From Paracyclopina nana (lineage: Eukaryota; Arthropoda; Copepoda; Cyclopoida; Cyclopettidae), in the NCBI GenBank assembly GCA_019096065.1, contig JAGUCH010000009.1:630001-694000 (forward strand): a DNA stretch of 64,000 nt, in the 5' to 3' direction. Every line of letters starts with the position of its first letter. Within the stretch, counting starts at the first letter, position 1. A model generated the notes under the pieces. That model had not been told where the DNA came from. It was given only the letters and a program-made list of their open reading frames with translations, and did no database searches. Shown here piece after piece: positions 5,128-51,423 of this stretch. A program made the position numbers and the translations under genes.

Positions 5128-5148
5128 TTGCCAGGAACGGCTCATAAT

Positions 5149-10242: not shown

Positions 10243-10708
10243 AGGGAAGCGAATCGGTGATTTTCACTGTTTTTCGGAGGTCCGCTCAGTGAACGTGACG
10301 TCATGATCGCGTGAGCGAAGTTGACCCGTACCTCAAAAGTGTTTCAAATTGTTGGAAATAGAATCAGGTCAAAAGAGCCAACATTTTAGACTATTTAGCC
10401 ACTTTTTATAAGTAATGCCATTCTGGGAACACTTTTGATTGATGCATTGGCTTGCCTAAAAGCCAGCCCGAAATTAGCAGAAATATTGAATTTACCAGCA
10501 AAATATGGGCAAATTACAATAAAATATGTACTTTCTACCCCCAAGTTCAAGTTATGCTTGACAAAATCACTCCATGTGAAAAAAACTGATTCATTAGAAA
10601 TTGGAGGTCTGAAGCAGGCAGCGATCGGACCTCCAAAATGTTGCATAATTCGACGGTACGATAGATATGGTATATTTTTCTTTGACTAAAAGATGCAAAG
10701 TAATTATA

Positions 10709-22614: not shown

Positions 22615-22617
22615 AAA
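22572..22617 (-). promoter_or_regulatory. -1 ribosomal frameshift signal between gag and pol of B
   Basis: In the Gag frame the codons read T TTA AAC at 22617-22611, a canonical X XXY YYZ heptamer (TTTAAAC). The Gag stop follows after one codon. The pol frame is open only from the TTT of the heptamer onward, because an in-frame TGA sits directly before it. Five bases downstream, GGCGGC (22605-22600) can pair with GCCGCC (22577-22572), giving the expected stem after a short spacer. Sequence, spacing and frames all fit programmed -1 slippage. Confidence 0.8.
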
Positions 22618-23696: not shown

Positions 23697-23814
23697 ATAC
23701 ACTGACTATGTTCCGGCGCAAAGTCTGCTCTTTTGCAAGCAAGCAAAAAGGGCAGAGTCCCTCCCCCAGGTTAAAAACGAGGACGTGAGGTCGAAAACCA
23801 GATGCCACCAATAT

Positions 23815-29247: not shown

Positions 29248-29272
29248 ATAATTATAACATGTTGTGAGCAAT

Positions 29273-29993
29273 ATAGGATTATACACCTCTAGGCTGGAGG
29301 ATAACACGAATTATTTTTTAGTGTCAAGTGACAGATCACGAGTGAGCGGAGCGAACGAGTGATTGGCACGCGACACTAAAAAATAATGAGTGTTATCCTC
29401 CAGCCTAGAGGTGTATAATCCTATTACTATTAGCTGCCCCCAGCATTTCAAGCAATACCTGAAAGTCAATTAAGAAGTCCTTTTCTTGCTCTTTTTTTGC
29501 AAGATATGCCTTAAATTTTGGGGTTCGCTTTATTGCAGACAGCTCATCAAAGTTGACCGAGCGGTCTAGCTGGCACCGGCCGGGCTAGCTAGTGGCCGCT
29601 GCACACAGCAAGCGTGAGCTCATCTAAGCTGACCCAGCAGTCTAGCGTTCAACATGCACCTGTTGTGTCTTGCGACCATGCCGCGCCGGCCCGTTTGGCC
29701 ATGTTTTTTAAGCGCTTGATCCTAAGTAATTTTTGTAATCAATTTGATGGCTCAGCGGTAGAGCCTCGGCGCGCTACCCGGGTGACCTGGGTTCGGTTCT
29801 TACTGCCTCCTCCTTCCTTTTTTTCATTGATATTTAAATAAGATAGATGGCGCACCTATAAATTGAGATATAATGATCATTATCCACTTGTAGATGGATA
29901 ATGTTCATTATCATCCTGCGAGCCAAAGAGGATCATGGAAATTATAAGGTCGGAGCTTATGTACTGCTCAGCCGTCTCAGCTAATAGTAATAC
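29273..29993 (+). mobile_element. Composite tRNA-like/hairpin element, copy 2 (full length)
   Basis: This copy begins with a 152-bp near-perfect hairpin (ATAGGATTATACACC to GGTGTATAATCCTAT, 29273-29424). It continues with TACTATTAGCTGCCCC, the shared body and a tRNA-like block with box A TGGCTCAGCGGTAGAGC and box B GGGTTCGGTTC (29747-29815), then CCTTCCTTTTTTTC. A 3' part ends in CAGCTAATAGTAATA. The words at the body's two ends are inverted copies of each other, so the body has its own TIRs and the hairpin sits outside one of them. Confidence 0.8.
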
Positions 29994-29994
29994 T

Positions 29995-30617
29995 TATTAC
30001 TATTAGCTGAGATGGCTGAGCAGTACATAAGCTCCGACCTTATAATTTCCATGATGCTCTTTGATTCGCAGGATGATAATGAACATTATCCATCTACAAG
30101 TGGATAATGATAATTATATGTCAATTGATCTGTGCGCCATCTATTTCATATCCATATAAAAGAAAAAGCAACGGAGGGTGGCAAGAATCGAACCGGGGGC
30201 AACCGAGTAAGGCGCCGAAGCTCTACCACTGAGCTATCAGTGTAACCATAAAAATAATGGTTTTTTGTCGTTCTTGATAGAGCTAGATGAGCGGCCAAAC
30301 GGGCCGGCACAGGCTGCATCATATCTGTATGTCACCAGCAGTGCTGAGCTAGTGGTCATAAACAGGCCAGATGGGTCATGCAAGCAGTACTAGCAAGCGC
30401 AGCAAAAACATGGCCGTACGGGCCGGAGCGTCATGGTGGCAAGACGCAACAGCAACAGATGCATGTTGATGGCTAGAACGCTGGGTCAGCTTTGATGAGC
30501 TCTCACTCGCTATCTTCAATAAAGCGAATCGCAAAATTTAAGGCATACCTTGCAAAAATCAAGCATAAGAACTTTCCTAAATTCAATATGAGCCAATGCT
30601 TGAAATGTTGGGGGGGT
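29995..30617 (-). mobile_element. Composite tRNA-like/hairpin element, copy 3 (inverted)
   Basis: This is the mirror image of copy 2, reading on the minus strand. It has TATTACTATTAGCTGAG at the palindrome centre, the tRNA-like block at 30178-30240, and the CAATGCTTGAAATGTTGGGGG region by 30617. Its terminal hairpin is displaced to 31009-31033 plus 32238-32376 by later insertions. Confidence 0.8.
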
Positions 30618-30629
30618 CAAGATGATGTA

Positions 30630-30980
30630 TACTTATAAGGTGAGTTCTTATCGCTGCTTTACTATAGCGCACAGTCTGACTGAGCTGTGGTAGGCTTTAA
30701 GATGAAATTTCAATAGAATTTTGTGGATTTCACTTCCAAAAATTTCCTTAATCCACCATAAATTAGCAAAATGTGCCTAAATCGCAACTTTTTTTTATAA
30801 AAACAGAACTTATCTGGGAGCTCTGTTTAAAAAGCGAGATATTAGCCCGCTCGCTTCCATCACTGACGTCACTTGAGCTCACGCGCTATGTTGTAAGAAC
30901 TACTAGCGCCACCGCAGCTAAGACAAACAGATTTGGTGATTTTAGCATGCAAAACTTGCGTCAAGAACTCACTTACGAGA
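30630..30980. mobile_element. Small MITE-like insertion in the palindrome
   Basis: The block absent from the left arm is bounded by imperfect inverted repeats, ACTTATAAGGTGAGTTCTTA and CAAGAACTCACTTACGAG. No ORF is present. The outer limits are blurred by G and C runs on both sides, so the target duplication cannot be read. Confidence 0.5.
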
Positions 30981-31005
30981 CCCCCCGGGGGGGGGGGGGG
31001 GGGGG
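30981..31005. repeat. C6G19 homopolymer junction
   Basis: Six C are followed directly by nineteen G, next to where the composite element normally has five to seven G. Expansion of that G run or an assembly slip is likely. Confidence 0.8.
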
Positions 31006-31033
31006 TAGCTAATAGTAATAGGATTATACACCT

Positions 31034-32237
31034 CCCCACAAACCAAAATCGCGTTTTCAATATCAAAACATAGTAGTTGATATTTAGATAATTTTCAACT
31101 CAATTCTCACATAAGGTCGCCTACTATTTGTCAAACTAGGAGATGAATTTAAGATTTCTAGTAGTTGTGTGCTAATTGATGATCAAATATATATCTCAAT
31201 ATATATTTAAGATTTTTAGTAGAAGCAAGGTTGACGTCGCTAGAAATAATGAAGGAGCTAATAAGATGTACTATTTATCAAATGAAACACTCAATATAAA
31301 CTTGAGATGTATGCTCTAAATCTAGTCTTCTATGTTTCATATTGGTAAACTAGCCCTAAACTAGGAGATGGCCAACAACAGTCATTTGGGCCTTCTGGGC
31401 CTTTTTGCTAAAATAAGTGGGCATGTATTGCTACCAGCTATGTTAAATCCTTAATATTAGAATATTTTTATTATGTAAATATTAGGTTTGTATTGGTATG
31501 TTCATATTGACATATCTATAAAGCATTTTAGCAAAAGTAGCAACAAGTCCTTCCTCAATAGAGTCAGCAGAAGTCTTGCTGCCGCCATGCTGATCTCGTA
31601 GGTTTAGTGACCTCATGATTCTTTCAATTCGGAAATGTTTGACTCCTAAAAATCCAAGTCTAATAATAAAATATATACAGCATCTAAGAAGATTCAGTAC
31701 CTCTAACAATCCAAGCAAACAGCCCAATGGCAAGCAGCCCTTCCTCGGTCATAATGGGGAAAGTCACTTTTTCAAATGCTTCATCATATTGACAAGACGA
31801 GTTCAAGATATTTTCTGCACGATTTAATTTTGGCCGTCACACTTGAATTTTCATTTAACAAGTGATGATTTCACAACAATTATTTGAATAATACTTCAAC
31901 GGATTTTTTTTTACTTCTGTTTTTTCTAATGGAAATGTTGATATATAGTTGTTGTGTAATGGATGATTACTACTAGTTGGCTAAAGGACGAAACATCCAG
32001 TCCATTCATGAACTAAGACAAGATCTCAACTGTTTTCTAAAAATATTAAAGTAGAAGAAATTATCAAGATATATAGTTTTTGCTTGGCATGACAAAATTG
32101 GGATCAAGATATATCAAAATACCTAGAAGTGCTTCACTAAAAATTATCTAATGATTCCTAAGAAAACCAAAAAATTGAAATCTAGGAGATGTCTCCCGAT
32201 ATCTAGTTTCAGAAAATTGAGATTTTGGTTTGTGGGG
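31034..32237. mobile_element. 1.2-kb TIR element (CCCCACAAACCAAAATC) with CT duplication
   Basis: Terminal inverted repeats of 17 bp, CCCCACAAACCAAAATC, bound the block. The surrounding hairpin sequence is split at ACAC-CT|CTAGG with a 2-bp CT duplication. No transposase ORF is present inside, so it is non-autonomous. It resembles the element at 40846-42751 in terminal bases and in target duplication. Confidence 0.75.
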
Positions 32238-32376
32238 CTCTAGGCTGTCAGATAACACTCATTATTTTTTAGTGTCGCGTGCCAATCACTCGTTTGCTCT
32301 GCTCACTCGTGATCTGTCACTTGACACTAAAAAATAATTCATGTAATCATCCAGCCTAGAGGTGTAAAATCCTATA
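32238..32376. mobile_element. Remainder of the terminal hairpin of composite copy 3
   Basis: CTAGGCTGTCAGATAACACTC through TTTTTTAGTGTCGCG to GGTGTAAAATCCTAT is the rest of the ~150-bp hairpin whose first bases lie at 31018-31033. The loop contains GATCTGTCACTTGACACTAA, as in the other copies. Confidence 0.75.
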
Positions 32377-32400
32377 TTGCTCACAACATGTTATAATTAT

Positions 32401-32757
32401 TGTAGCTGGAACTTGAGTATACGGGTGTGCTCGTGGGCGCGCAATGAGCTGCAAGGCGAAGGCCGGAAAGGCTTGGCTCCTGGAGAGCCGGTCAAGGATC
32501 ACTGAGCAATGTACTAATGAGGGAAGTTAATCCCTTGACCCGTAGATGGGTCGGCTTCAGCTGCTTATCGCTGATCCGCTCACGGTCACTTTCGAGATCT
32601 GATATTGCCAGGCACAAAATATGGTCATAAATGGTCACTCTTGAGACCTAGCATGGTTGTTGCGCAAACACGGTTGTAAACAGTCCAAGCCGCTGGCCTC
32701 TTTATGGCCAAATTCCCAAGGTTGCTCCTAGTAACAAGGGAGATCAATTGCTATTTG
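32401..32757. other. Unclassified spacer before the satellite
   Basis: This moderately GC-rich spacer has no ORF of note. A partial satellite-like word (ATGGCCAAATTCCCAAGG) appears at 32703. Confidence 0.4.
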
Positions 32758-35700
32758 CTTCAAACCCATGGCCAAGTTCCTCTGGGCTGGCTCCAGGTTC
32801 TGGAGGAGGAGTATTTCTTCCCGGCCCCGCCCTCGGCTTCCTGGGCATACCTCAACTTGCATGCCAGCTCTGCAGTGAAGTGGAAACTCGAGATGTGCCA
32901 TTGGAGACATGGGCGTGGCCCAGACCCAGCTTCAAACCCATGGCCAAGTTCCCCTGGGCTGGCTCAAGGCTCTGGAGGACAAGTATTTCTTCCCGGCCCC
33001 GCCCTCGGCTTCCTGGGCATACCTCAGCTTGGCTGCAAGCGTTGCAGTGAAGTGGAAACGCGAGACGAGCCATTGGAGACATGGGTGTGGCCCAGACCCA
33101 GCTTCAAACCCATGGCCAAGTTCCTCTGGGCTGGCTCCAGGTTCTGGAGGAGGAGTATTTCTTCCCGGCCCCGCCCTCGGCTTCCTGGGCATACCTCATC
33201 TTGCATGCCATCTCTGCAGTGAAGTGGAAACTCGAGATGTGCCATTGGAGACATGGGCGTGGCCCAGACCCAGCTTCAAACCCATGGCCAAGTTTCCCTT
33301 GGGCTGGCTCCAGGTTCTGGAAGGTTCTGGAGGAGGAGTATTTCTTCCCGGCCCCGCCCTCGGCTTCCTGGGCATACCTCATCTTGCATGCCAGCTCTGC
33401 AGTGAAGTGGAAATGCGAGACGAGCCATTGGAGACATGGGCGTGGCCCAGACCCAGCTTCAAACCCATGGCCAAGTTCCCCTGGGCTGGCTCAAGGCTCT
33501 GAAGGACAAGTATTGCTTCCCGGCCCCGCCCTCGGCTTCCTGGGCATACCTCAGCTTGGCTGCTTGCTTTGCAGTGAAGTGGAAATGCAAGACGAGCCAA
33601 TGGAAACATGGGCGTGGCCCAGACCCAGCTTCAAACCCATGGCCAAGTTCCTCTGGGCTGGCTTCAGGTTCTGGAGGAGGAGTATTTCTTCCCGGCTCCG
33701 CCCACGGCTTCCTGGGCATACCTCAACTTGCATGCCAGCTCTGCAGTGAAGTGGAAACTCGAGATGTGCAATTGGAGACATGGGCGTGGCCCAGACCCAG
33801 CTTCAAACCCATGGCCAAGTTCCCCTGGGCTGGCTCCAGGTTCTGGAGGAGGAGCTTTTCTTCCCGGCCTGGGCAACCTCATCTTGCATGCCAGCTCTGC
33901 AGTGAAGTGGAAATGCGAGACGAGCCATTGGAGACATGGGCGTGGCCCAGACCCAGCTTCAAACCCATGGCCAAGTTCCCCTGGGCTGGCTCAAGGCTCT
34001 GAAGGACAAGTATTTCTTCCCGGCCCCGCCCTCGGCTTCCTGGGCATACCTCAGCTTGGCTGCTAGCTTTGCAGTGAAGTGGAAACTCGAGATGTGCCAT
34101 TGGAGACATGGGCGTGGCCCAGACCCAGCTTCAAACCCATGGCCAAGTTCCCCTGGGCTGGCTCCAGGTTCTGGAGGAGGAGTATTTCTTCCCGGCCCCG
34201 CCCTCGGCTTCCTGGGCAACCTCATCTTGCATGCCAGCTCTGCAGTGAAGTGGAAATGCGAGACGAGCCATTGGAGACATGGGCGTGGCCCAGACCCAGC
34301 TTCAAACCCATGGCCAAGATCCTCTGGGCTGGCTTCAGGTTCTGGAGGAGGATTATTTCTTCCCGGCCCCGCCCTCGGCTTCCTGGGCATACCTCAACTT
34401 GCATGCCAGCTCTGCAGTGAAGTGGAAACACGAGACGAGCCATTGGAGACATGGGCGTGGCCCAGACACAGCTTCAAACCCATGGCCAAGTTCCCCTGGG
34501 CTGGCTCCAGGTTCTGGAGGAGGAGTATTTCTTCCCGGCCCCGCCCTCGGCTTCCTGGGCAACCTCATCTTGCATGCCAGCTCTGCAGTGAAGTGGAAAT
34601 GCGAGACGAGCCATTGGAGACATGGGCGTGGCCCAGACCCAGCTTCAAACCCATGGCCAAGTTCCTCTGGGCTGGCTTCAGGTTCTGGAGGAGGATTATT
34701 TCTTCCCGGCCCCGCCCTCGGCTTCCTGGGCATACCTCAACTTGCATGCCAGCTCTGCAGTGAAGTGGAAACACGAGACGAGCCATTGGAGACATTGGCG
34801 TGGCCCAGACCCAGCTTCAAACCCATGGCCAAGTTTCCCTTGGGCTGGCTCCAGGTTCTGGAGGAGTAGTATTTCTTCCCGGCCCCGCAAACGGCTTCCT
34901 GGGCATACCTCAACTTGCATGCCAGCTCTGCAGTGAAGTGGAAACTCGAGATGTGCCATTGGAGACATGGGCGTGGCCCAGACCCAGCTTCAAACCCATG
35001 GCCAAGTTTCCCTTGGGCTGGCTCCAGGTTCTGGAGGAGTAGTATTTCTTCCCGGCCCCGCCCACGGCTTCCTGGGCATACCTCAGCTTGGCTGCTTGCT
35101 TTGCAGTGAAGTGGAAATGCAAGACGAGCCATTGGAGACATGGGCGTGGCCCAGACCCAGCTTCAAACCCATGGCCAAGTTCCTCTGGGCTGGCTTCAGG
35201 TTCTGGAGGAGGATTATTTCTTCCCGGCCCCGCCCTCGGCTTCCTGGGCATACCTCAACTTGCATGCCAGCTCTGCAGTGAAGTGGAAACTCGAGATGTG
35301 CCATTGGAGACATGGGCGTGGCCCAGACCCAGCTTCAAACCCATGGCCAAGTTCCCCTGGGCTGGCTCAAGGATCTGGAGGACAAGTATTTCTTCCCGGC
35401 CCCGCCCTCGGCTTCCTGGGCATACCTCATCTTGCATGCCAGCTCTGCAGTGAAGTGGAAATGCGAGACGAGCCATTGGAGACATGGGCGTGGCCCAGAC
35501 CCAGCTTCAAACCCATGGCCAAGTTCCCCTGGGCTGGCTCAAGGCTCTGAAGGACAAGTATTGCTTCCCGGCCCCGCCCTCGGCTTCCTGGGCATACCTC
35601 AGCTTGGCTGCTAGCTTTGCAGTGAAGTGGAAACTCGAGATGTGCCATTGGAGACATGGGCGTGGCCCAGACCCAGCTTCAAACCCATGGCCAAGTTCCC

Positions 35701-38700
35701 CTGGGCTGGCTCAAGGCTCTGGAGGACAAGTATTTCTTCCCGGCCCCACCCTCGGCTTCCTGGGCATACCTCAGCTTGGCTGCTAGCTTTGCAGTGAAGT
35801 GGAAACACGAGACGAGCCATTGGAGACATGGGCGTGGCCCAGACCCAGCTTCAAACCCATGGCCAAGTTCCCCTGGGCTGGCTCAAGGATCTGGAGGACA
35901 AGTATTTCTTCCCGGCCCCGCCCTCGGCTTCCTGGGCATACCTCAGCTTGGCTGCTAGCTTTGCAGTGAAGTGGAAATGCAAGACGAGCCAATGGAAACA
36001 TGGGCGTGGCCCAGACCCAGCTTCAAACCCATGGCCAAGTTCCCCTGGGCTGGCTCAAGGCTCTGGAGGACAAGTATTTCTTCCCGGCCCCGCCCTCGGC
36101 TTCCTGGGCATACCTCAACTTGCATGCCATCTCTGCAGTGAAGTGGAAACTCGAGATGTGCCATTGGAGACATGGGCGTGGCCCAGACCCAGCTTCAAAC
36201 CCATGGCCAAGTTTCCCTTGGGCTGGCTCCAGGTTCTGGAGGAGGAGTATTTCTTCCCGGCCCCGCCCTCGGCTTCCTGGGCATACCTCAACTTGCATGC
36301 CAGCTCTGCAGTGAAGTGGAAACTCGAGATGTGCCATTGGAAACATGGGCGTGGCCAAGACCCAGCTTCAAACCCATGGCCAAGTTCCCCTGGGCTGGCT
36401 CAAGGCTCTGGAGGACAAGTATTTCTTCCCGGCCCCGCCCTCGGCTTCCTGGGCATACCTCATCTTGCATGCCATCTCTGCAGTGAAGTGGAAACTCGAG
36501 ATGTGCCATTGGAGACATGGGCGTGGCCCAGACCCAGCTTCAAACCCATGGCCAAGTTCCCCTGGGCTGGCTCAAGGATCTGGAGGACAAGTATTTCTTC
36601 CCGGCCCCGCCCTCGGCTTCCTGGGCATACCTCAGCATGGCTGCTAGCTTTGCAGTGAAGTGGAAACACAAGACGAGCCATTGGAGACATGGGCGTGGCC
36701 CAGACCCAGCTTCAAACCCATGGCCAAGTTTCCCTTGGGCTGGCTCCAGGTTCTGGAGGAGGAGTATTTCTTCCCGGCCCCGCCCTCGGCTTCCTGGGCA
36801 TACCTCAACTTGCATGCCAGCTCTGCAGTGAAGTGGAAACTCGAGATGTGCCATTGGAGACATGGGCGTGGCCCAGACCCAGCTTCAAACCCATGGCCAA
36901 GTTCCCCTGGGCTGGCGTAAGGCTCTGGAGGACAAGTATTTCTTCCCGGCCCCGCCCTCAGCTTCCTGGGCATACCTCAGCTTGGCTGCTAGCTTTGCAG
37001 TGAAGTGGAAATGCAAGACGAGCCATTGGAGACATGGGCGTGGCCCAGACCCAGCTTCAAACCCATGGCCAAGTTCCTCTGGGCTGGCTTCAGGTTCTGG
37101 AGGAGGATTATTTCTTCCCGGCCCCGCCCTCGGCTTCCTGGGCATACCTCAACTTGCATGCCAGCTCTGCAGTGAAGTGGAAACTCGAGATGTGCCATTG
37201 GAGACATGGGCGTGGCCCAGACCCAGCTTCAAACCCATGGCCAAGTTCCCCTAGGCTGGCTCAAGGATCTGGAGGACAAGTATTTCTTCCCGGCCCCGCC
37301 CTCGGCTTCCTGGGCATACCTCATCTTGCATGCCATCTCTGCAGTGAAGTGGAAACTCGAGACGAGCCATTGGAGACATGGGCGTGGCCCAGACCCAGCT
37401 TCAAACCCATGGCCAAGTTCCCCTGGACTGGCTCCAGGTTCTGGAGGAGGAGTATTTCTTCCCGGCCCCGCCCTCGGCTTCCTGGGCAACCTCATCTTGC
37501 ATGCCAGCTCTGCAGTGAAGTGGAAATGTTCCCCTGGGCTGGCTCAAGGCTCTGAAGGACAAGTATTGCTTCCCGGCCCCGCCCTCGGCTTCCTGGGCAT
37601 ACCTCAGCTTGGCTGCTAGCTTTGCAGTGAAGTGGAAACTCGAGATGTGCCATTGGAGACATGGGCGTGGCCCAGACCCAGCTTCAAACCCATGGCCAAG
37701 TTCCCCTGGGCTGGCTTCAGGTTCTGGAGGAGGAGTATTTCTTCCCGGCCCCGCCCTCGGCTTCCTGGGCAACCTCATCTTGCATGCCAGCTCTGCAGTG
37801 AAGTGGAAATGCGAGACGAGCCATTGGAGACATGGGCGTGGCCCAGACCCAGCTTCAAACCCATGGCCAAGTTCCTCTGGGCTGGCTTCAGGTTCTGGAG
37901 GAGGAGTATTTCTTCCCGGCCCCGCCCTCGGCTTCCTGGGCATACCTCAACTTGCACGCCAGCTCTTATGTGAAGTGGAAACTCGAGATGTGCCATTGGA
38001 GACATGGGCGTGGCCCAGACCCTTCTTCAAACCCATGGCCAAGTTCCCCTGGGCTGGTTCAAGGCTCTGGAGGACAAGTATTTCTTCCCGGCCCCGCCCT
38101 CGGCTTCCTGGGCATACCTCATCTTGCATGCCATCTCTGCAGTGAAGTGGAAACTCGAGATGTGCCATTGGAGACATGGGTGTGGCCCAGACCCAGCTTC
38201 AAACCCATGGCCAAGTTCCCCTGGGCTGGCTCAAGGATCTGGAGGACAAGTATTTCTTCCCGGCCCCGCCCTCGGCTTCCTGGGCATACTTCAGCTTGGC
38301 TGCTAGCTTTGCAGTGAAGTGGAAACACGAGACGAGCCATTGGAGACATGGGCGTGGCCCAGACCCAGCTTCAAACCTATGGCCAAGTTTCCCTTGGGCT
38401 GGCTCCAGGTTCTGGAGGAGGAGTATTTCTTCCCGGCCCCGCCCTTGGCTTCCTGGGCATACCTCATCTTGCATGCCAGCTCTTCAGTGAAGTGGAAATG
38501 CGAGACGAGCCATTGGAGACATGGGCGTGGCCCAGACCCAGCTTCAAACCCATGGCCAAGTTCCCCTGGGCTGGCTCAAGGCTCTGGAGGACAAGTATTT
38601 CTTCCCGGCCCCGCCCTCGGCTTCCTGGGCATACCTCAGCTTGGCTGCTAGCTTTGCAGTGAAGTGGAAACTCGAGATGTGCCATTGGAGACATGGGCGT

Positions 38701-40345
38701 GGCCCAGACCCAGCTTCAAACCCATGGCCAAGTTCCTCTGGGCTGGCTTCAGGTTCTGGAGGAGGAGTATTTCTTCCCGGCCCCGCCCTCAGCTTCCTGG
38801 GCATACCTCAACTTGCATGCCAGCTCTTCAGTGAAGTGGAAACTCGAGATGTGCCATTGGAGACATGGGCGTGGCCCAGACCCAGCTTCAAACCCATGGC
38901 CAAGTTCCCCTGGGCTGGCTCAAGGCTCTGGAGGACAAGTATTTCTTCCCGGCCCCGCCCTCGGCTTCCTGGGCATACCTCAGCTTAGCTGCTAGCTTTG
39001 CAGTGAAGTGGAAACTCGAGATGTGCCATTGGAGACATGGGCGTGGCCCAGACCCAGCTTCAAACCCATGGCCAAGTTCCTCTGGGCTGGCTTCAGGTTC
39101 TGGAGGAGGAGTATTTCTTCCCGGCCCCGCCCTCGGCTTCCTGGGCATACCTCAACTTGCATGCCAGCTCTGCAGTGAAGTGGAAACTCGAGATGTACCA
39201 TTGGAGACATGGGCGTGGCCCAGACCCAGCTTCAAACCCATGCCCAAGTTCCCCTGGGCTGGCTCAAGGCTCTGGAGGACAAGTATTTCTTCCCGGCCCC
39301 GCCCTCGGCTTCCTGGGCATACCTCATCTTGCATGCCATCTCTGCAGTGAAGTGGAAACTCGAGATGTGCCATTGGAGACATGGGCGTGGCCCAGACCCA
39401 GCTTCAAACCCATGGCCAAGTTCCCCTGGGCTGGCTCAAGGCTCTGGAGGACAAGTATTTCTTCCCGGCCCCGCCCTTGGCTTCCTGGGCATACCTCAGC
39501 TTGCCTGCTAGCTTTGAAGTGAAGTGGAAACGCGAGACGAGCCATTGGAGACATGGGCGTGGCCCAGACCCAGCTTCAAACCCATGGCCAAGTTCCCCTG
39601 GGCTGGCTCAAGGCTCTGGAGGACAAGTATTTCTTCCCGGCCCCACCCTCGGCTTCCTGGGCATACCTCAGCTTGGCTGCTAGCTTTGCAGTGAAGTGGA
39701 AATGCAAGACGAGCCATTGGAGACATGGGCGTGGCCCAGACCCAGCTTCAAACCCATGGCCAAGTTCCTCTGGTCTGGCTCCAGGTTCTGGAGGAGGAGA
39801 ATTTCCCATGGGCCCCACCTACGGCTTCCTGGGCATACCTCAGCTTGCATGGAAACTCGAGACATGTGCTATTGGAGACATGGGCGTGGCCCAGACCCAG
39901 CTTCAAACCCATGGCCAAGTTCCTCTGAGCTGGCTCCATGTTCTGGAGGAGGAGTATTTCTTCCCGGCCCCGCCCTTGGCTTCCTGGGCATACCTCAGCT
40001 TGCATGCCAGCTCTGCAGTAAAGTGTAAACTTGAGATGTGCCATTGGAGACATGGGCGTGGCCCAGACCCAGCTTCAAACCCATGGCCAAGTTCCTCTGG
40101 GCTGGCTCCAGGTTCTGGAGGAGGAGAATTTCCCATGGGCCCCGCCCTCGGCTTCCTGGGCATACCTCAGCTTGCATGCCAGCTCTGCAGTAAAGTGGAA
40201 ACGTGAGACGTGCCGTTGGAGACATGGGCGTGGCACAGACCCAGCTTCAAACCCCTGGCCAAGTTCCTCTGAGCTGGCTCCATGTTCTGGAGGAGGAGAA
40301 TTTCCCACGGGCCCCGCCTACGTCCTCCTGGGCATACCTTAGCTT
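32758..40345. repeat. ~172-bp satellite array, about 44 monomers
   Basis: Tandem monomers share GACATGGGCGTGGCCCAGAC, CCATGGCCAAGTT and CCCGGCCCCGCCCTCGGCTT. Two main classes intermix. One has GGCTCAAGGCTCTGGAGGAC with CTCAGCTTGGCTGCTAG; the other has GGCTCCAGGTTCTGGAGGAG with CTCAACTTGCATGCCAG. A third subtype has CTCATCTTGCATGCCATC. Some monomers lack three bases before CCTCATC, and one near 37530 has an internal deletion of about 90 bp. The last few units (from about 39780) carry AATTTCCCATGGGCCCC and are more diverged. The array is nearly stop-free on both strands, so the many 60-277-codon ORFs are not genes. Confidence 0.95.
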
Positions 40346-40706
40346 GGCCTCAATGTTGACTGCCAAATCTCTTGAAATTGGCCAATCCAAAACCTGAAAA
40401 TAAAAGAAATAATTGTATTAACAGCTTTTAACTGAAGTTTTTTGTCACAATTCTCTCTATCATTCTGTGTCTGAAATCTCCTTTTGTAAGATCACACTTT
40501 TCATGATGATAATTTGTTTTTATGTGATTTGCCAAAGAAGAGGAGCATAAAAAATGTTCATAAATAATTTTGATGTCTGATTAATTGAAATAGAAAAGAG
40601 GATTTTGTTGTCTTTTTTTTTTGGAGAGGCTATGAGAATTTTGAAGTCCTTTTTAAAGATGAAGAATTGTGAATTTTGATTGTCATATATGAAGAAATGA
40701 TGAGTT
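40346..40706. other. 3' flank of the Ly6-like gene
   Basis: This is AT-rich DNA downstream of the stop codon at 40707 on the minus strand. It presumably contains the 3' UTR. There is no AATAAA close to the stop. Confidence 0.4.
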
Positions 40707-43025: not shown

Positions 43026-43130
43026 CTGCAAAGAGGAGTTGTTGAATAGGAGAACCGTAAAATATTCCACTTGGGAAAAGCTTGCCTCAAGCTTTGATTA
43101 ATGCCAAATCATATCTAGATGGCGCTGCAC

Positions 43131-43955
43131 TCATACACAGAGGGCACTTCTCCTCCTCCAGAACCTGGAGCCAGCCCAGAGGAACTTGGCCAGGGGTTAG
43201 AAGCTGGGTCTGGGCCCCGCCCATGTATCCAATGGCACGTCTGGAGTTTTCACTTTACTGCAGAGCCGGCAGGCAAGCTGAGGTATGCCCAGGAAGCCGT
43301 AGGCAGGGCCCATGGGAAATTCTCCTCCTCCAGAACCTGGAGCCAGCCCAAAGGAACTTGGCCATGAGTTTGAAGCTGGGTCTGGGCCACGCCCATGTCT
43401 CCAATGGCACGTCTGGAGTTTTCACTTTACTGCAGAGCCGGCAGGCAAGCTGAGGTATGCCCAGGAAGCCGTAGGCAGGGCCCATGGGAAATTCTCCTCC
43501 TCCAGAACCTGGAGCCAGCCCAGTGGAACTTGGCCATGAGTTTGAAGCTGGGTCTGGGCCACGCCCATGTCTCCAACAGCACGTCTCGTGTTTCCACTTT
43601 ACTGCAGAGCTGGCAGGCAAGCTGAGGTATGCTTGGAAGCCGAGGGCGGGGCCGGGAAGAAATACTTGTCCTCCAGAACCTGGAGTCACCCCAGAGGAAC
43701 TTGGCCAGGGGTTAGAAGCTGGGTCTGGGCCCCGCCCATGTCTCCAATGGCACATCTCGAGTTTTCACTTTACTGCAGAGCCAGCAGGCAAGCTGAGGTA
43801 TGCCCAGGAAGCCGTAGGCAGGGCCCATGGGAAATTCTCCTCCTCCAGAACATGGAGCCAGCCCAGAGGAACTTGGCCATGGGTTTGAAGCTGGGTGGTC
43901 TGGGCCACGCCCATATCCCCAATGACACGTCTCGAGTTTTCACTTTACTGTAGAG
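43131..43955. repeat. Inverted satellite block, about five monomers
   Basis: These ~172-bp units are in the opposite orientation to the main array. They carry GGGCCCATGGGAAATTCTCC, which matches the diverged units at the right end of that array (39780-40320) rather than its centre. The block sits upstream of the Ly6-like exons, probably within that gene's intron. Confidence 0.9.
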
Positions 43956-45029
43956 CTGGCGCTGAAAATACCTTCTTTTATTTCAAACTAAGAAATCATT
44001 GAAACCTCACCTTTTTCTTGGCATTTGGGATCTAGCAATTTGTGCCTTTTTGAGAGAATTGCTGCCTCTTTTCCTCATGTGTTTTCTGTAGCAATATTGG
44101 CTCCTTATTTCCGGCAATTTTTTCACGGGAATTGTGGCCTGTTTTGCACCAGAATTCGGGTCTGTTTCCACAGTAAGGCTCCAAGAAATCATGCCCTTTT
44201 TTACAAAATTCTTGGCTTTTTTTTCCAGGATAGCAGCCTGTTTTTCTTGGGGAATTCGGCCCACTTATCGGCTTGTTAAGAATTCGGCGCGCATTCAGGC
44301 AATGCAGCTGATGCAACTGAGTGACGTCACACTGCTTCGCTACGTAGTTAGCGCGCGGCAATTTGACGGAAAAATAATAACTCCATGTTTTAAAAAATTC
44401 GCGAAATGGCGGATCGCAAGGCTGGAAAAAACCTTGATTTTGATGCACTTCCCGGCCACGCAGAGAAAAAAGCTTTGGTGTTTTGGCGATCCCATGGGAC
44501 CAGTGATGCACCGAGCAACAAAAAATTGGGCACTTATTAGTGAAAAAAAGCAACGTCTCAATTTTGTAGAGTTGTAGCGCGAAAGGTTACACCACCTTTT
44601 ATTAAGTTCTTATTTTCAACTTAATAAATTTTTTGCATAATTGCTGCCGAATTATTTAAACTTATTTCAACTTATTTTTTGTCACTTATTTCCTTGCAAA
44701 TAAAATAGCATATTAATAAGTTCTTATTCCCAGTTCACGAAAAAAAATTTTCCTAATTATTTAAGATCTTAATAAATTGACAAGAAGCACTTATTGAAGT
44801 TACCTGATGAGAATCCTACCTTTAAGTAATGTTGATTATTTCCTTTTTAGTAATTTTGTAAAATGTGCGGACTTGAGTTGTGTATTCAAAGAAATAAATG
44901 TTTTTTAAACAATTTCTAATGTTTATTATCTATTTTTGGTATCATAAAATCTGCATTTTCATAACAGTGACATTAATATCTGACTTAAAAGTGATTTTGC
45001 ATGTTAAATCAATCAGACTAACAATTTGA
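43956..45029. other. Spacer with a 44-codon plus-strand ORF
   Basis: This is mostly non-coding. On the plus strand, ATGGCGGATCGCAAGG at 44406 opens a 44-codon ORF (to 44540). It lies downstream of GTGACGTCAC (44321), a CRE-like palindrome. The N-terminal sequence MADRKAGKNLDFDALPGH looks protein-like, so it may be a first exon or an element's N-terminus. The minus-strand ORF across the same region (44032-44553) shows no coding character. Confidence 0.35.
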
Positions 45030-46774
45030 CTACACAATAAACGACTCATTTGGCACAGCAAAAATGATGTTCTCACAAATGCCAGCTTTGCACATTATAT
45101 CATCAAACTTTAAAATGACTTTTGTAGGCTCATCCTCATTTGTGCTCATTTCACACACAAACACGTCGTTAAAGTCAATATCATTTACTTTGTGATAATA
45201 GTGTCGTCTTGTTTTGATTTCTTGTGCAACGAAGCCTTCTGCATTGTCTTCAACAAGCTTGTAGTAGTGGCCATCAAAAGTTGCTACTAAGTTGTTGCAA
45301 GAGCGTTTTGGACCAACTTTGATTGACAGTTTGATTTTGGGTTGGCAACTGTGGCGCTTCATGTTGTAAATGAAGGATTTCATCATCACTTGTTTCGCAA
45401 AGGACAAAGTGTTGGGAATTATTATGCGCTTCAAATAGGAAAAGAAACCTTCAAATTTTATTGCCGACATCCCGCTTAGGAGACCAAGTGTTCTGACATG
45501 AAGTGTGTGGTTGAAGCCGTGTATGTTGAAAACACAGCCTTTTCAAATTCCTCGTAGAATCGTTTTTGCCATAAAATGGACTTTAGCTCATTCATTTTTC
45601 TCTTGAAAATCTTGTCTGGCATCAGAGCAATTTGCACAATAACAATGAAGTAGATCCACACACGCCTCACTGTTTTGTACATGTCACTCTCCATTGCTTT
45701 ATGAAAAGCATGGAATCCGCAAACAATCACTGACATGAATTCCACAGCTTTATAATGAATAAAGCATGAGTTCTGTTCACGAGGCCTTCTCGGAAATTCA
45801 CTAGGGAGATCCATGTCCATCCAAAATTGTCGAATGCCTTAGAAACGACATTTCCAGCTTCACTAAGCCACTTTTGGTCTTTTTTGTGTTGCAAAATCAA
45901 GGTCATAATCAGCCAGCACACTCCTAAATTGATATTGTGCATGGGGTCAACTGGTGAGTCGTCGATAATGGAAAAATATTCCAATTTCAATCTCTTGTTT
46001 TTGCTGATAGTATGTGGGCGGTCTCTTATGGCTTTGGCAATTTCAATCCACTCTGCCATTGTCCTTGGCTTGTACTTAGCAGTGAAGGCTAGATAAGTCA
46101 TTTTTCTAAACTTCTTATGCTGACCTCATTGGCATATCGCCCAAAAACTTGCGCACTGTGAACTGTTTAGCAATGGCTTCATCAATTATCTTACTGACAA
46201 GGTTCATCATTTGAGTTTCATGGCCTTTTCTCTTCACTTGAATTGCCAATGGCCAAACTTCTTGGCAATGGTTGAACCTTGCGCATGTCACGTTCATAGA
46301 TGTGTCTCCACTTTTTGTGAGGGGCACTCCATCAATAAATAAGTCAACAAGCCTCTTTTTTCCTTCCTCGCTATCCAAAACTTCATGAATCTTGAGGAAG
46401 AACATATAAAGTTCAAATAAAGAGGCCCATTCACACATCATTTTGAATCTGGGGCGTGGAAATTCTTTCCTGGGATATTTATCGCCAGCGTGTGCATAGG
46501 TTTCCTTATCAACGGTATCGAAAAATTCATATATCATACGAATTTTTGGAATCTCCTTTTCAAAATGCTTACGAATGGTTGGATAAGTGTACCAGTCTTT
46601 TGAATCACCAACCATTGCACTTTCGTGATTCCAGATCATGTTGGCTTGAACTTCCTTTAGAGCTAGCTCACTGCACATTGCCATATAGTTCTGGTAGTAG
46701 GCCTCGTTCTGCTGCTGCTCCGTTGGAAGATTTTCAAACTCAGCAAACAGCTCCTCAAATTTCTGTTTGGTCAT
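45030..46774 (-). pseudogene. CACTA/EnSpm-like transposase, catalytic half
   Basis: Consecutive minus-strand frames (46774-46115, 46101-45727, 45820-45476 and 45470-45030) read as one decayed transposase. Recognised segments are FIDGVPLTKSGDTSM with QEVWPLAI, then SPVDPMHNINLGV, then HYKAVEFMSVIV and FSYLKRIIIPNTLSFAKQV. The order DG-PL-KS, DPMHN-LG, KA-EF and F-YLKR matches TNP2-type proteins of the CACTA (EnSpm/CMC) superfamily. The zinc-ligand segment between the first two blocks is missing and frames shift at each boundary, so the copy is inactive. The N-terminal part is separated by element C. Confidence 0.6.
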
Positions 46775-47074
46775 TTCTCTTAAATTTGGACTTTAGAATG
46801 TCCATCTTCTGGATCCTCATAGTCCGCCGCATTCATTCCTGCATCAATGTCTTGCAAGAATGCATCATAATGCACTTGTTGAGTATCACTATCTCCCTGA
46901 GTCATTTCTTGAGCAACTTCGGGCACTACTGTTCTTGAGTGGTTGGATGACAGCAGTGATTCACTTTCCTGAAATCAAAAGAGAAAATACATGTTAAAGA
47001 TATAATAAGTTATCCAGACTTTGTCTCAGTTTACATAGTTAGTTTGTTGCATTTAATTGTCTGAACCAGATATA
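46775..47074 (-). pseudogene. CACTA-like gene: acidic exon and intron left of element C
   Basis: An acceptor (TTTTGATTTCAG at 46972-46983) precedes a stretch coding for SESLLSSNHSRTVVPEVAQE and an acidic run DYEDPEDGH. It ends just before the catalytic half in another frame. Beyond the acceptor is intron sequence, cut at 47074 by element C (target duplicate ATATA). Confidence 0.5.
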
Positions 47075-47299
47075 TGTACGCAATGTCGTCGCAAGAATAC
47101 TGAAGTCCTTGGAAGAATTGCGGATGACTATGAAGTATTGTTTTTCAGGTTTTAATGAAACTATGAAGTTTTCAATAAAGACGTGGAAACGATGAATGCA
47201 AAATGGTAACTGACTGTTTTATTCAGCTGATCAGCTTACACTATGAAATGAGACTAATTGAAAGGCGGGAATATTCAAACAGTTGGCGAAGTTCGAACA
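47075..47299 (-). repeat. 3' LTR of element C
   Basis: This LTR of ~225 bp is the mate of 58713-58942. It differs by a 5-bp indel near GATGACTATGAAG and by several transitions. It is preceded, in element orientation, by the purine tract AGCGGGGAA. Confidence 0.88.
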
Positions 47300-48730
47300 T
47301 TCCCCGCTGGTGGCCCATCGTCACCATTGTCATCTTCGCCGAACATGAGTTGATGGGCTTCAGCCATATCGATGTCTTTGTCGTCTTCTTCTCCCTCCTC
47401 CCTTTTTAGGAGATCTTCCGATACTTCAGCGAGTAAACGGCCAGCATTTGCTCCAGGGATCGGTGGGATGGGCGTAGCCAAAGGGACGGGAGGTTGGGTG
47501 ACCGGTTGCAAATGTTGCGTGGAAGTAGGTGGAGCCATCGGCGGAGGAATTTCCACCTTTAAAGGGGCTAAAGGGGCTACTTCCGGAGCCAGTGGGGCTG
47601 ATGACGTTGGCTGAAGTGGATGCGCAGCGTTGACGTCAATCTTCAAAAGAAGCTGTTCGAACGGCAGGATTTTTTGCTTCGCTTCTTCCAGATCAGACGC
47701 CAGAGCTGACTCAAAGTCTGTCCCCGAAGGGGGCGTGGTAGACCTGGAAGTCATGGATGGCTCGGATCCCAACTCCAATGAGGTCGACGTGGAAGTGGTG
47801 GTGGATGACCTCAGGAGATCCGCCGGATTAGGGCAATATGAGGCATACGAAGCTGCTTCCATTGAGGCCGAGGCTGATGAAGGGGACACAAGATCCACAG
47901 TGTTGGGGGTCTCTCCGGTGTTTTTGCGAAGCTTCGCTACAAAGTTTGCTTCGCCAGTTCGAATCTCCCATCATCGGTCTCTCCTCACAAAGTCATTGTT
48001 TGAGTGGAAGAAGTCATTCACCAAGACGTGAGGGTTTTGGTTTATGATCGTGTTTATTGCAGAGATCGGGACCAAGACTACTTTATCGCTGGAAATAGTA
48101 CAAGTGAGTCCTTTTGGGTGGGTTCGAGGATCTCTGAACGAAATGCTTTTAGGGAAGTTTGCAATCATTTCATCTCCCTTTTTTCTAGCCTGGTTACTCC
48201 CTCTGTTTTGATTTACAGTTTGTGAGGAAGAGGCCAAAGAGGATTGGTTTCGGATTGGAGCTCCAGCGATTTGGCGAATAAGATCTTCAAGACCTCCCTT
48301 TTCGCGCTGAAGCTCATTGTAGTTTCGAAGAGCAATTCTACGTGTTTCATCATTTTGCATGGTTCGGTGGATGGGGTAAGGATCTGCTGAACTAAAGAAT
48401 TTCATAGATTCATCATACGCCCGCCCAAGTTCGCTAAAGATGTGAATTGCTTCTTTTACGTTACCCCTGCTCAGGTATAAAAGCCTGAGGCTGTCTAGTT
48501 TCACCAAGTCTAATCGTTTTCGTAGGTGTTCCATTGGGATCCTGGAGATATGACCTTCCTGGAGCTTGGAACCTAAGATTCGGTTCATCAGGTTGAGCAG
48601 GACCTCGGCTATGCCACTGCCTTTCGTTTTCAAGTCCGAATAGAAGGTGGGCTTGTCGAACTTGAATTGGTAGTTAGTTCCCTTTTCTGTTGATGGACGG
48701 GGCTGATAGTTGTTGAGCCATTTTTCTTTT
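47300..48730 (-). pseudogene. Accessory ORF downstream of element C pol, unknown function
   Basis: Two long frames (48633-47971 and 47898-47300) follow each other between the integrase end and the 3' LTR. The first half is helical and basic (KLQEGHISRIPMEHLRKRLD, LSRGNVKEAIHIFSELG). The second is Pro/Ser/Thr-rich with an acidic end (KREEGEEDDKDIDMAEAHQ). There is no signal peptide or membrane segment, so it is not an Env. The order of basic helical core then acidic tail recalls nucleocapsid- or chaperone-like proteins, but I cannot assign a family. It is GC-richer than the neighbouring pol. Confidence 0.5.
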
Positions 48731-48789
48731 TAGAGAAGTTTTGGACAACTGGAGGTTTGAGATGGCCACGTGGTCTCGATTTGGTTTTA

Positions 48790-48835
48790 GAACACAATGG
48801 GGATCGAACCTGGGTTCACATGAGCTATTTATAGT
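48790..48835 (-). promoter_or_regulatory. TATA-type promoter candidate upstream of the accessory ORF
   Basis: In element orientation ACTATAAATAGC (48823-48834) lies about 100 bp before the accessory ORF. The downstream word GGTTCGATCCCCATTG is about 25-30 bp from the TATA box, the position of a start site. It suggests a separate subgenomic-type transcript. Confidence 0.4.
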
Positions 48836-49189
48836 GTTCAGCCGGCTCCGAGAAGTGTCTCAGCAAATACGCGTGCAATGAGGTTTGTCTACGTCATTTT
48901 TGATCGGCCTCTAATTCGTACTTTGGGACTTTGGGATTTTAGCTATTTTCCACGAAGTTTTCCGTGCAAGTTCTTTGTTTATGGGTGATCGCCACGCGAT
49001 TCGCCGTTCAGCTTTCCCTGCAACTTGCGCATTGCGACAAAAACTTATGTCATTGACAATTGTATAAGTTTGTTTTTCAAAGCTTTTTTCCCCGCATAAT
49101 AGTATTTTAGGGGGATTCTTGGCTACTCGCAAAAATTCCCAGCGTTTAGAGTATATTTAGCGGAATTAGTTGATGAATAGAATATACGT

Positions 49190-49986
49190 CAGTTTTTGCA
49201 GGTTTTATTTCGTTTGTCTTAGTTTTACTTTGATTGCAGGGTATGAGGATTTCGCATTTTCTAATCAGTCCGTCTTTGTCTGGAATGAGTTTGATAATTC
49301 TTCCCATTTCCAGTCATAGCGTGGAGGAACTTGCCATGTCTTTTTAGCATCCGGCGATTGCATTATAAGACAAAGCTCTTCAATATTTGGGTTGTCTCTA
49401 AATTTTTGCCATTTAGGAAACATTTTTTAGGTCATCGATTATGGCAGTTGTCCATTGTTGCCAGTAAGTATCTATTAAGTCCCGGACATTCAAGTAAAGG
49501 TTTATGAATCTGTTTTCATCTTTTACTTGAAGGACACTATTGTCAAAGTTTAACCTGACTTTATTAAGTCATTTATGCATAGAATGCCTTCTATTTTGTC
49601 AGTTTCAATTGGATTGACTGGTCCATTGTTTATCAAGTTTATTATCATTTCAGATGCCGTCATTAATTCATCCAAGGTAAAAGTGGAGCTTTCTAGACAT
49701 GGAAGTCTCGCTTTTGCCATTCATTCAGCGAGGCCATTGTTTTGGGGGCTATATACCGGAGAGAATTCCCATGTTTCAATGTTTAAGGTATTTTGAATTT
49801 TTGTCATATCAGGTATTAATAGCTTTTTGGCGCAACAAAATTGAGCTGCATTATCAGATCTTATGGTTTTCGGAGTTCTGCGTTTGCTGCAGAATCTTTG
49901 TAGAGCTGAAATGACATGTTTGGTTGCCTTGCTTTCCATGATTTCCATATGAAAGGCATGAGTTTGTTGGCAGACTATGATCAATA
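49190..49986 (-). pseudogene. Element C integrase core and C-terminal domain
   Basis: The integrase core resumes with IIVCQQTHAFHMEIMES, then the second catalytic aspartate in RSDNAAQF, and FSPVYSPQNNGLAE near the third acidic residue. Several stops follow. The end carries GRIIKLIPDKDGLIRKCE, the hallmark of the BEL/Pao C-terminal domain, near 49200-49320. Overall this is a decayed but recognisable Pao integrase. Confidence 0.75.
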
Positions 49987-49990
49987 AGTA

Positions 49991-50705
49991 TTACTATTAG
50001 CTGAGACGGCTGAGCAGTACATAAGTTACGACCATATAATTTCCATGATTTTTCACTGTTGTTTGATCTAGAGGATAATGAACATTATGCATCTGCAAGT
50101 GGATAATGATCATTACGCCTCACTTGATCCTTGCGCCATCTATTTTTTTTGAATATCATAGAAAAAAAGGAAGGAGACAGTAAGAATCGAACCCCGGTCA
50201 CCCGGGTAGCGCGCCGACGCCCTACCTCGGAGCCACCAATTTGATTATGAAAATATCTGAGGAGCGAGCGCCTAAAAAGCATTGTCCAACGGGCCGGCGC
50301 GGCCGGTGCAAGCTAGACCGCTGGGTCAGCATTGATGGGCTAACGCTTGCTGTGTGGAGTGGCCACTATCTGGCGCGGCCGGTGCAAGCTAGACCGGCCG
50401 GTGCAAGCTAGACCGCTGGGTCAACTTTGATGAGCTGTTTGCAATAAAGCGAGCCACAAAATATAAGGCACATCTTGCGAAAATCAAGCCTAAAAAACTT
50501 TCGTAAATTCAATTTTAGCCAATGCTTGAAATGTTGGGGGCCAGCTAATAGTAATAGGATTATACACCTCTAGGCTGTCGGATAACACTCATTATTTTTT
50601 AGTGTCTCGTGCCAATCACTCGTTCGCTCCGCTCACTCGTGATCTGTCACTTGACACTAAAAAATAATTCGTGTTATCCTCCAGCCTAGAGGTGTATAAT
50701 CCTAT
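49991..50705 (-). mobile_element. Composite tRNA-like/hairpin element, copy 4, in C integrase
   Basis: This is a full-length reverse copy. It has the terminus TTACTATTAGCTGAG at 49991, the tRNA-like block (50165-50235, plus-strand reading GAATCGAACCCCGGTCACCC), the shared body, and the terminal 152-bp hairpin at 50554-50705. AGTA on each side (about 49987-49990 and 50706-50709) is a candidate 4-bp duplication. The body has extra copies of GGCCGGTGCAAGCTAGACC near 50,300-50,400. Confidence 0.8.
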
Positions 50706-51423
50706 AGTACTTGTGGATCGGGCGACCAATTTTTACTTTTATTGGTCCTGCAAAGGCTATAGAGATGGATTCAAGCAGTTTCAAGGTTTCCAATTTTGAA
50801 TCTGGAAGTGGTGCCATGTGCTGGCTTTGAAAGGGTTTTCCTTTCGTTAGGTTGCATATCAAACTTACATAGTGCCATTGGCTTTTTTCAGTGGTCTCTC
50901 TTATTAACGCTAGTCTTGTTGCAATGAATTGTTCAAGCCTTCTGCTCGTGAACTTAATCCATAGCAAAGTGCACTGTGAATCGAGAAAAGTAGTGGACAT
51001 TTTCTTTTGGCACTTCGTAATTTACCAGTTTCAAGTTTTTAATAACATTAGGAACTATTTGGGCTGCGCAAACTGCTCCCATTAGTTCAGCTTTTGGAAT
51101 TGATCTCCCTGAAAATGAGATCAGTTTCTTTTTTGCAACAATAAGATGAGCTTTTATGAGCTCGTTTTCATCGTCATTTTTATAAAAAGTTCTAATGTAG
51201 ACGGCGACGCAGTAAGCTTTTCGAGAAGCATCGCAGAAAGCATGTATTTTGCGTTTTGTAATAGAGTCTGCATTGACAGATATGTAGCGAGGTAATGTGA
51301 TTTCGTTTATTCTACATCCGTCATATACATAGTTTTGAAAAGCTAGAAGGATTGGCTCGATTCTTTCGTCTTTGTCTTTATATTCTACTAGTTTATCATC
51401 CCAGCCAAGTTTTAAAGTATCGT
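50706..51423 (-). pseudogene. Element C RNase H and integrase N-terminal part
   Basis: The frame continues after the foldback element with TLKLGWDDKL, then RNase H (HAFCDASRKAYC, SIPKAELMGA and, after a frame change near 50990, FLDSQCTLLWIK). A segment leading into the integrase core (GPIKVKIGRPIHKYY) follows. A composite element interrupts at 50705. Confidence 0.7.

Follow-up and report, generated by a model that had tools for sequence, protein, structure and literature searches.

Introduction

Among mobile elements that depend on a tyrosine recombinase (YR), two groups are close to the family described here. Animal Cryptons (CryptonA and CryptonI; Kojima & Jurka 2011) are described without terminal repeats (PMC3212892). 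DIRS1-like elements have, close to the 3' end, a pair of internal complementary regions, which overlap on a 3-bp circular junction; they mostly start and end with NTT, ATT being the commonest form, and produce no target duplication (PMC3266345). For DIRS retrotransposons, Cryptons have been put forward as a possible origin of the recombinase (PMC4157794, PMC6681497). Replitrons, according to a review, have short direct terminal repeats and 2–8 bp duplications and occur in algae and non-seed plants. The subject of this analysis is a repeat family in a 64,000-nucleotide stretch of the copepod Paracyclopina nana genome (the window, C9:630001–694000), whose copies join a 152-bp hairpin end to a body with a tRNA-like block. 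We consider the window copies, with a probability of about 0.72, to be non-autonomous members of a YR DNA-transposon family with Crypton-like coding capacity. The genome scanned comprised 92 Mb in 10 contigs (C-numbers); L-numbers denote fetched loci, and positions such as 29,273 are window positions.

A single mobile unit

The repeat is a genuine mobile element and a single unit. Read 5' to 3', a copy has the layout TATT-ACTATTAGCTG...body...CAGCTAATAGT-AAT-AGGATT(152-bp hairpin)AATCCTATATT. The left-end motif TATTACTATTAGCTG has 189 exact matches in the genome (106 + 83, terminal and internal copies pooled), compared with 0 + 0 for its reversed-word control, while the right-end motif and the hairpin/body junction AGTAATAGGATTATACAC have 131 and 119 exact matches, respectively. 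When 40 loci were picked by the exact terminal inverted repeat (TIR) motif alone (taken in list order from C1 and part of C2, 5–10 kb apiece), hairpin sequence was present in 39, in some as a remnant, and only L026 had none. At 71 of 100 listed right ends (out of 131), the same strand has an exact junction no more than 260 bp upstream, and 56 of these 71 show a distance of 139 or 142 bp. For 57 of the 70 exact right ends on C1–C3 (to 6.85 Mb), an exact left motif occurs on the same strand within 12 kb, the remaining 13 being without one, and the paired ends are 325–4962 bp apart (median 778). Conservation among 30 aligned copies is highest in the hairpin and the last 46 nt (0.96–0.99), followed by the adjoining 120 nt (0.91) and the sequence in between (0.76–0.87). 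L027 and L029 are identical across 701 bp at separate genome places and are thus young copies.

The initial annotation had proposed that the hairpin lies outside the body repeat on one side only and travels with the body, and both points are borne out; hairpin and body are not found mostly apart with independent boundaries. Two independent elements, a 152-bp palindromic miniature inverted-repeat transposable element (MITE) beside a TIR MITE, are very improbable. Such a pair would account for the body-free lone palindromes L061 and L064, found among 18 further loci fetched around an exact right end, mostly without an exact left motif listed close by. Body sequence is still visible at 11 of these 18 loci and not at 7, five of which (L049, L050, L052, L058 and L063) hold a right-end fragment only. 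However, exact junctions (119) are nearly matched in number to exact right ends (131), the orientation of the hairpin relative to the body is identical in 33 of 33 standard-length hairpins, and L064 has its own explanation: the lone hairpin at L064:456–737 has two right-type arms and sits inside a palindromic flank with 65-nt inverted arms, as expected of a collapsed head-to-head pair.

Ends, target sites and crossover

The outer ends, ATTACTATTAGCTG and AATATAGGATTATAC, are unrelated by inspection and share no inverted terminal repeats, which means that they are not ordinary TIRs. The body ends had been annotated as inverted copies of each other; the motif and its inverse are indeed found, but the outer ends of the element are not mutually inverse. 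A MITE or foldback element was ruled out, there being no outer TIRs with a constant-length duplication. In a sample of 35 two-ended copies picked by the left motif, 33 have TATT as their left core, L016 having GCTT and L047 AATT instead; at the right end, the core reads TATT in 32, TAAT in 2 and TAGT in 1. Target duplications of constant length, suggested earlier as a check, were sought in these copies, and flank matches resemble those of a mismatched-flank control, except at L029 and L037. A 16-bp direct repeat flanks L029 and none flanks L027, its sister over 701 identical bp. Empty sites without duplication beyond the ambiguous core were found for L012 (vs L019 and two L048 sites) and for L045 (vs L043, L015, L028 and L016). 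As a separate observation, the 5' flank of L018 and the 3' flank of L010 share about 400 bp (90%), at opposite element ends and abutting the same base.

The flanks reveal a preferred target, A(A/T)(A/T)NNN-TATT. After L016 (chimeric left end) and the second tandem unit of L031 were dropped, 30 of 33 copies have A at position −6 from TATT, in comparison with 995 of 3259 control TATT sites (p = 9e-13); AWW precedes TATT in 27 of 33 copies vs 430 of 3259 control sites, and AAT in 15 of 33 vs 112 of 3259. L067, outside this sample, likewise reads AATTTG-TATT. Deviations from the right core, counted over 72 occurrences in 67 loci, number 0, 1, 9 and 1 at positions 1 to 4, the sole position-2 deviation and one of the nine at position 3 belonging to the decayed end of L010. 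Loci L049–L087 were mostly picked by exact GTGTATAATCCTATA, which fixes core positions 1–2 there; in the 35 left-motif-picked copies, free of that bias, there are three deviations, all at position 3. Left-core deviations fall at positions 1–2. The pattern is what strand exchange between TA and TT would give, the target supplying the outer half of each core.

Copies are also joined head to tail. The junction word GTATAATCCTATATTACTATTAG occurs exactly at eight genome places, seven of which are head-to-tail joins (L031, L086 and L087 read in sequence, four inferred from end positions), and the eighth, C5:4526707 (L065), is an internal junction with two extra bases. Diverged tandem joins are present in L022 and L073.

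A recombinase-like gene within matching ends

L017 (C1:5255005–5257208, 2204 bp) bears both family ends and, on the minus strand from the hairpin to the left end, open reading frames (ORFs) of 257 and 339 aa, which would fuse in frame over a predicted 58-nt GT–AG intron into a divergent YR-like protein of 535 aa. Exon 2 has two matches, to a PHROG 'integrase' profile (E = 0.00097) and, below cut-off, to PF00589 (E = 0.0076), the latter stopping on the tyrosine of GHKSLETLAHYDP. The predicted protein has R..R..H..Y motifs, and L017 carries this one predicted spliced ORF. Homologue searches yielded P0001 and P0002 only, of which P0001 retains R332, H355 and Y364. An identical 339-aa sequence (100%) is encoded elsewhere in the genome, at one further place. 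In addition, L067 is identical to L017 over 1388 bp from its exact left end, where the match ends; its right end was not found in the fetched 4.4 kb. Compared with the non-autonomous consensus, L017 is 88% identical over about 250 nt on the hairpin side and 92% over 38 nt at the left end, and box A and box B are absent from it. Given that a copy with matching ends encodes a YR-like protein without the boxes, the family is placed among YR elements and the tRNA-like block is read as cargo. The small elements are probably moved by the recombinase encoded by a larger relative. A 4.96-kb member (L048:4343–9302) consists mostly of tandem-repeat ORFs coding GKSPQGQKSPRAKVP, with no Pfam match for the three ORFs tested. 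The genome also holds DUF3504 genes, read as WOC/ZMYM-like, and BEL/Pao- and gypsy-type Pfam matches.

A non-autonomous Helitron2/Helentron-type rolling-circle element, in which a Rep would nick TATT/AC and replicate the strand, was favoured first and was demoted by the absence of exact ends near the Rep matches of C2 and by the YR-like gene of L017. Asymmetric inverted repeats, a terminal hairpin, the lack of duplication and head-to-tail joins all fit Helitron2 as described (PMC5148889), and the genome has seven Rep-like matches to PF14214, five above cut-off. All seven are on C2, at about 14.49–14.66 and 17.15–17.26 Mb, yet no exact left motif, right end or junction lies near them (the C2 lists are complete for exact ends; diverged ends are not covered). 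The target, TATT with AWW upstream, also differs from TT (Helentron), TTTT/T-or-C (Helitron2) and TNAT/T (FoHeli1-2) (PMC5148889), and the gene within the family ends is YR-like. Overall, a rolling-circle origin appears unlikely. One of the clustered C2 Rep matches is in an open frame of 1443 aa. A search with the viral Rep profile PF02407 gave 0 genome matches, but it is uninformative because its control was silent too. TATTAC resembles a CRESS/geminivirus-type Rep site.

The hairpin as a proposed internal complementary region

From 5' to 3', the element reads left terminus (lTer) ATTACTATTAGCTG ... CAGCTAATAGT-AAT-AGGATTATACACC ... GGTGTATAATCCTATATT. Internally, a complement of the left end runs straight into one of the right end, the two sharing AAT, and the right terminus has two extra nucleotides (TATATT, not TATT). 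For single-stranded DNA folding, 19 copies in the 600–740 nt range were taken and six, with the searched motifs mutated, were skipped; all 13 copies folded are predicted to pair both of their termini with the contiguous internal complement (no shuffled control), at mean pairing probabilities of 0.89 and 0.98. Compensatory change is seen at 4 of 63 arm pairs in the 33 standard-length sequences among 42 distinct hairpin sequences, amounting to 10 cells, where shuffling gave 1.1 on average and at most 5. In its layout, the stretch matches a DIRS1-type internal complementary region, and we infer that the hairpin and the internal repeat work as one, a splint that would bring the ends together.

These features raise the question of whether the family is DIRS-derived, namely a truncated remnant of DIRS1-like retrotransposons that lacks reverse transcriptase (RT) and moves via RNA with DIRS enzymes in trans. 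Contiguous internal complementary regions sharing AAT, ATT at both ends and the lack of duplication are features described for DIRS1-like elements (PMC3266345). On the other hand, the outer ends lack inverted terminal repeats, the complementary region is upstream of the gene rather than on its 3' side, and 57 of 70 right ends pair with a left end at the short distances given above (325–4962 bp, median 778), the sole 4.96-kb copy being mostly tandem-repeat ORFs. A PF00589 search of the genome found no YR, though L017 was missed as well. Pfam matches of L017 and the three L048 ORFs include no RT, RNase H or methyltransferase, a result limited to these sequences since no genome-wide RT search was made. 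A DIRS remnant is therefore regarded as rather unlikely.

The tRNA-like block

A survey of 30 copies of 500–1150 nt, with two mismatches allowed per box, agrees with the annotated box A, box B and T-run inside the body. Both boxes are recognizable in 27 of 30 copies and strict in 15; in all 27 two-box copies, the spacing between them is 31 nt, and T4 follows box B after 15–18 nt, far from both element ends. Mean identity is 0.92 for box A and 0.93 for box B, compared with 0.83 for the spacer, 0.69 upstream and 0.88 downstream. Indels affect 9 of 30 rows in the 74-nt box block. In two 78-nt blocks upstream of it, all 30 rows are affected, and in two downstream blocks the counts are 14 and 13 of 30. 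This pattern suggests that the promoter has been kept, which is a different matter from driving transposition. A known tRNA gene was ruled out: ARAGORN found none in the window, and Rfam gave 0 matches, both for the window at the gathering threshold and for the 50-kb element at E ≤ 1. Judged from sequence, the tRNA-like promoter is a putative conserved passenger (internal cargo) of the non-autonomous copies.

The initial annotation had considered a short interspersed element (SINE) captured by a foldback transposon. A SINE, or another retroposon mobilized by long interspersed elements with a hairpin 3' end, could explain the tRNA-type boxes at fixed spacing and the 5 of 18 right-end-picked loci that hold a right-end fragment only. 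With boxes and terminator internal, though, the predicted RNA polymerase III (Pol III) transcript of about 90 nt would lack either end; there are no variable target duplications beyond the control, and the YR copy, L017, has no boxes. A retroposon, captured or not, is accordingly quite implausible.

Copies within the window

In the window, TATTACTATTAGCTG occurs at 9730, 29422, 29995 and 49989; the inverse motif is found at 29978 and 50542 and, with one mismatch, at 31006. The features are as follows, with lICR and rICR denoting the internal complements of the left and right ends and rTer the right terminus.

9681–10246, minus strand: degenerate 9.7-kb copy with about half the hairpin, lICR and body; left terminus missing, box A interrupted (consensus columns 103–663 at 75%).
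29270–29992, minus strand: element A, full length; left end 29992, hairpin end 29270, both ends intact (consensus columns 1–706 of 706 at 81.6%).
29273–29424, minus strand: hairpin of element A (rTer and rICR); 61-nt arms, 92% complementary, 30-nt spacer.
29422–29436, minus strand: lICR of element A, abutting rICR (motif match).
29748–29799, plus strand: tRNA-like block of element A; box A 29748–29758, box B 29790–29799, T-run downstream (box search).
29978–29992, minus strand: lTer of element A (motif match).
29995–32378, plus strand: element B, which faces A head to head and whose hairpin arm is interrupted by an insert of about 1.2 kb; lTer 29995–30009, lICR 31006–31020 (one mismatch), right terminus ending at about 32378.
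30185–30236, minus strand: box B 30185–30194 and box A 30226–30236 of element B (box search).
49989–50708, plus strand: 50.0-kb element, full length, both ends; lTer 49989–50003, lICR 50542–50556.
50184–50235, minus strand: box B 50184–50193 and box A 50225–50235 of the 50.0-kb element (box search).
50554–50705, plus strand: hairpin (rICR/rTer) of the 50.0-kb element, matching the 29.3-kb hairpin at 98% across 152 nt.

Four copies of one plan had been reported, and the motif is indeed present in all four, but only two hairpins are intact (29273–29424 and 50554–50705); the 9.7-kb copy retains about half of its hairpin and no left end, and that of the 30.0-kb copy is split by the insert. The foldback itself, annotated as near-perfect, is complete at 152 bp in those two copies; its arms are 92% complementary over 61 nt around a 30-nt spacer. 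The hairpin of element A is 100% identical at four other genome places, and the 568-bp body of the 50.0-kb element matches C4:4789419–4789986 at a rounded 100% (1021 vs 1025 bits). Elements A (29.3 kb) and B (30.0 kb) are inserted head to head, 2 bp apart, and the outer flanks of the pair are inverted copies of about 25 bp; the target was thus probably a palindrome containing GCAATAAGTATTGC, which presents AATNNNTATT on both strands.

The insert in the hairpin arm of element B (31035–32237, about 1.2 kb) has ends CCCACAAACC/GGTTTGTGGG and is probably a separate TIR transposon. Shortly after the right end of element B starts a 172-bp satellite array of >40 units (32605–40346), with an inverted arm at about 43142–43896. 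A 1107-nt inverted repeat, 98% complementary (51424–52530/52759–53865), is found among BEL/Pao-like fragments. Elsewhere in the window are a short tandem repeat array (5077–5832) in which several frames are open and, on the minus strand at 17149–23705, gypsy-like ORFs for gag and pol with a further ORF after them that looks envelope-like by position, based on a scan of gag, pol and one further ORF.

Proposed mechanism and its significance

In the mechanism proposed for a YR DNA transposon, a copy such as L017 would supply the recombinase in trans to the short copies. The element would be excised or copied as a circle, whose joined ends would read GGTGTATAATCC-TATATTAC-TATTAGCTG. Its TATT core would then recombine with an (AWW)NNN-TATT site in the genome; the crossover would fall between TA and TT, and the target would not be duplicated. 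On a single strand, the hairpin and the internal inverted repeat may hold both termini side by side, and the internal complement could template or stabilize end joining.

Several observations weigh against the assignment to a YR family. The profile matches are weak, PF00589 reaching E = 0.015 for the spliced L017 protein, which is below cut-off, and the H (HxxR) of the R-H-R-Y set is replaced by A, D, G or C in our own alignment. P0002 has two related domains, with RRGEEG and RPT motifs but with the tyrosine in neither, and the structure models of P0001 and P0002 are too poor to use (pLDDT 53 and 34). PF12012 (DUF3504, Crypton) does not match the L017 protein at E ≤ 10, NCBIfam and PDB sequences gave nothing useful for the recombinase, and comparison with the genome's own DUF3504 genes gave an hhalign Prob of 0.4 and a marginal blastp E of 0.006. 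Since one complete YR-coding copy was seen, the gene could itself be cargo. As for the ends, the internal junction is 2 nt shorter than the tandem junction, flank repeats of 16 bp and 11 bp (AT-rich) occur at L029 and L037, respectively, and the L045 empty sites differ by one base (C) from the filled site. Left ends were mostly picked by exact motif, so their constancy is biased and the left half of the crossover argument is weak.

A fuller proposal is more tentative: a YR-only transposon with a DIRS1-type splint, in which a single-stranded stage would hold the ends in register at TATT and a Pol III promoter would be selected in short derivatives. This version is possible but doubtful. If it is true, the splint does not depend on reverse transcription: it was either present in Crypton-like elements before DIRS captured RT or arose on two occasions. 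An element that combines DIRS1-type ends with a recombinase alone would make the order of events in the origin of DIRS testable and reveal the role of the splint without RT, and the young copies L027 and L029 make this a practical system. The retained Pol III boxes, in turn, prompt one to ask why a tRNA-type promoter is carried by a DNA element. Among the literature matches listed, drawn from open-licence PMC rather than Repbase or subscription papers, there is no description of an element that combines a YR as its only gene with hairpin or internal complementary ends, nor of a Crypton with a Pol III promoter.

Comparison with known systems

tRNA-derived SINEs carry box A, box B and a T-run, as does the family here; they differ in that here the promoter is inside a DNA element, whose predicted transcript cannot span it. 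Fungal Starships are likewise YR elements, with short direct repeats (19/20), TIRs (18/20) and gapped target motifs, whereas they are about 20–700 kb in size and the available part of their description mentions no internal complementary region (PMC12153272). Helitron2/Helentron elements and HINE/DINE share asymmetric inverted repeats, a hairpin near the 3' end and the lack of duplication, but in the family here no Rep/helicase was found in matching ends, the target is another one, and the hairpin is much longer than those described (PMC5148889).

The resemblance to DIRS1-like elements, as far as the source goes, covers abutting left and right complementary regions with an AAT overlap that adjoin the right terminus, ATT ends without duplication, and a model of YR recombination via a circle (PMC3266345). 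In contrast to these elements, no RT, RNase H or methyltransferase is seen here in the Pfam matches of L017 and three L048 ORFs, there are no outer inverted terminal repeats, the complementary region is upstream of the gene, and the junctions differ by 2 nt (PMC3266345). Relative to Cryptons in the available description, the family is set apart by its 152-bp hairpin end, internal left-end copy and Pol III promoter (PMC3212892), as well as by a YR without a PF12012 match. Nevertheless, it shares with them a short core without target duplication and non-autonomous derivatives that far outnumber the coding copy (PMC3212892), and a putative YR would likewise be its only gene.

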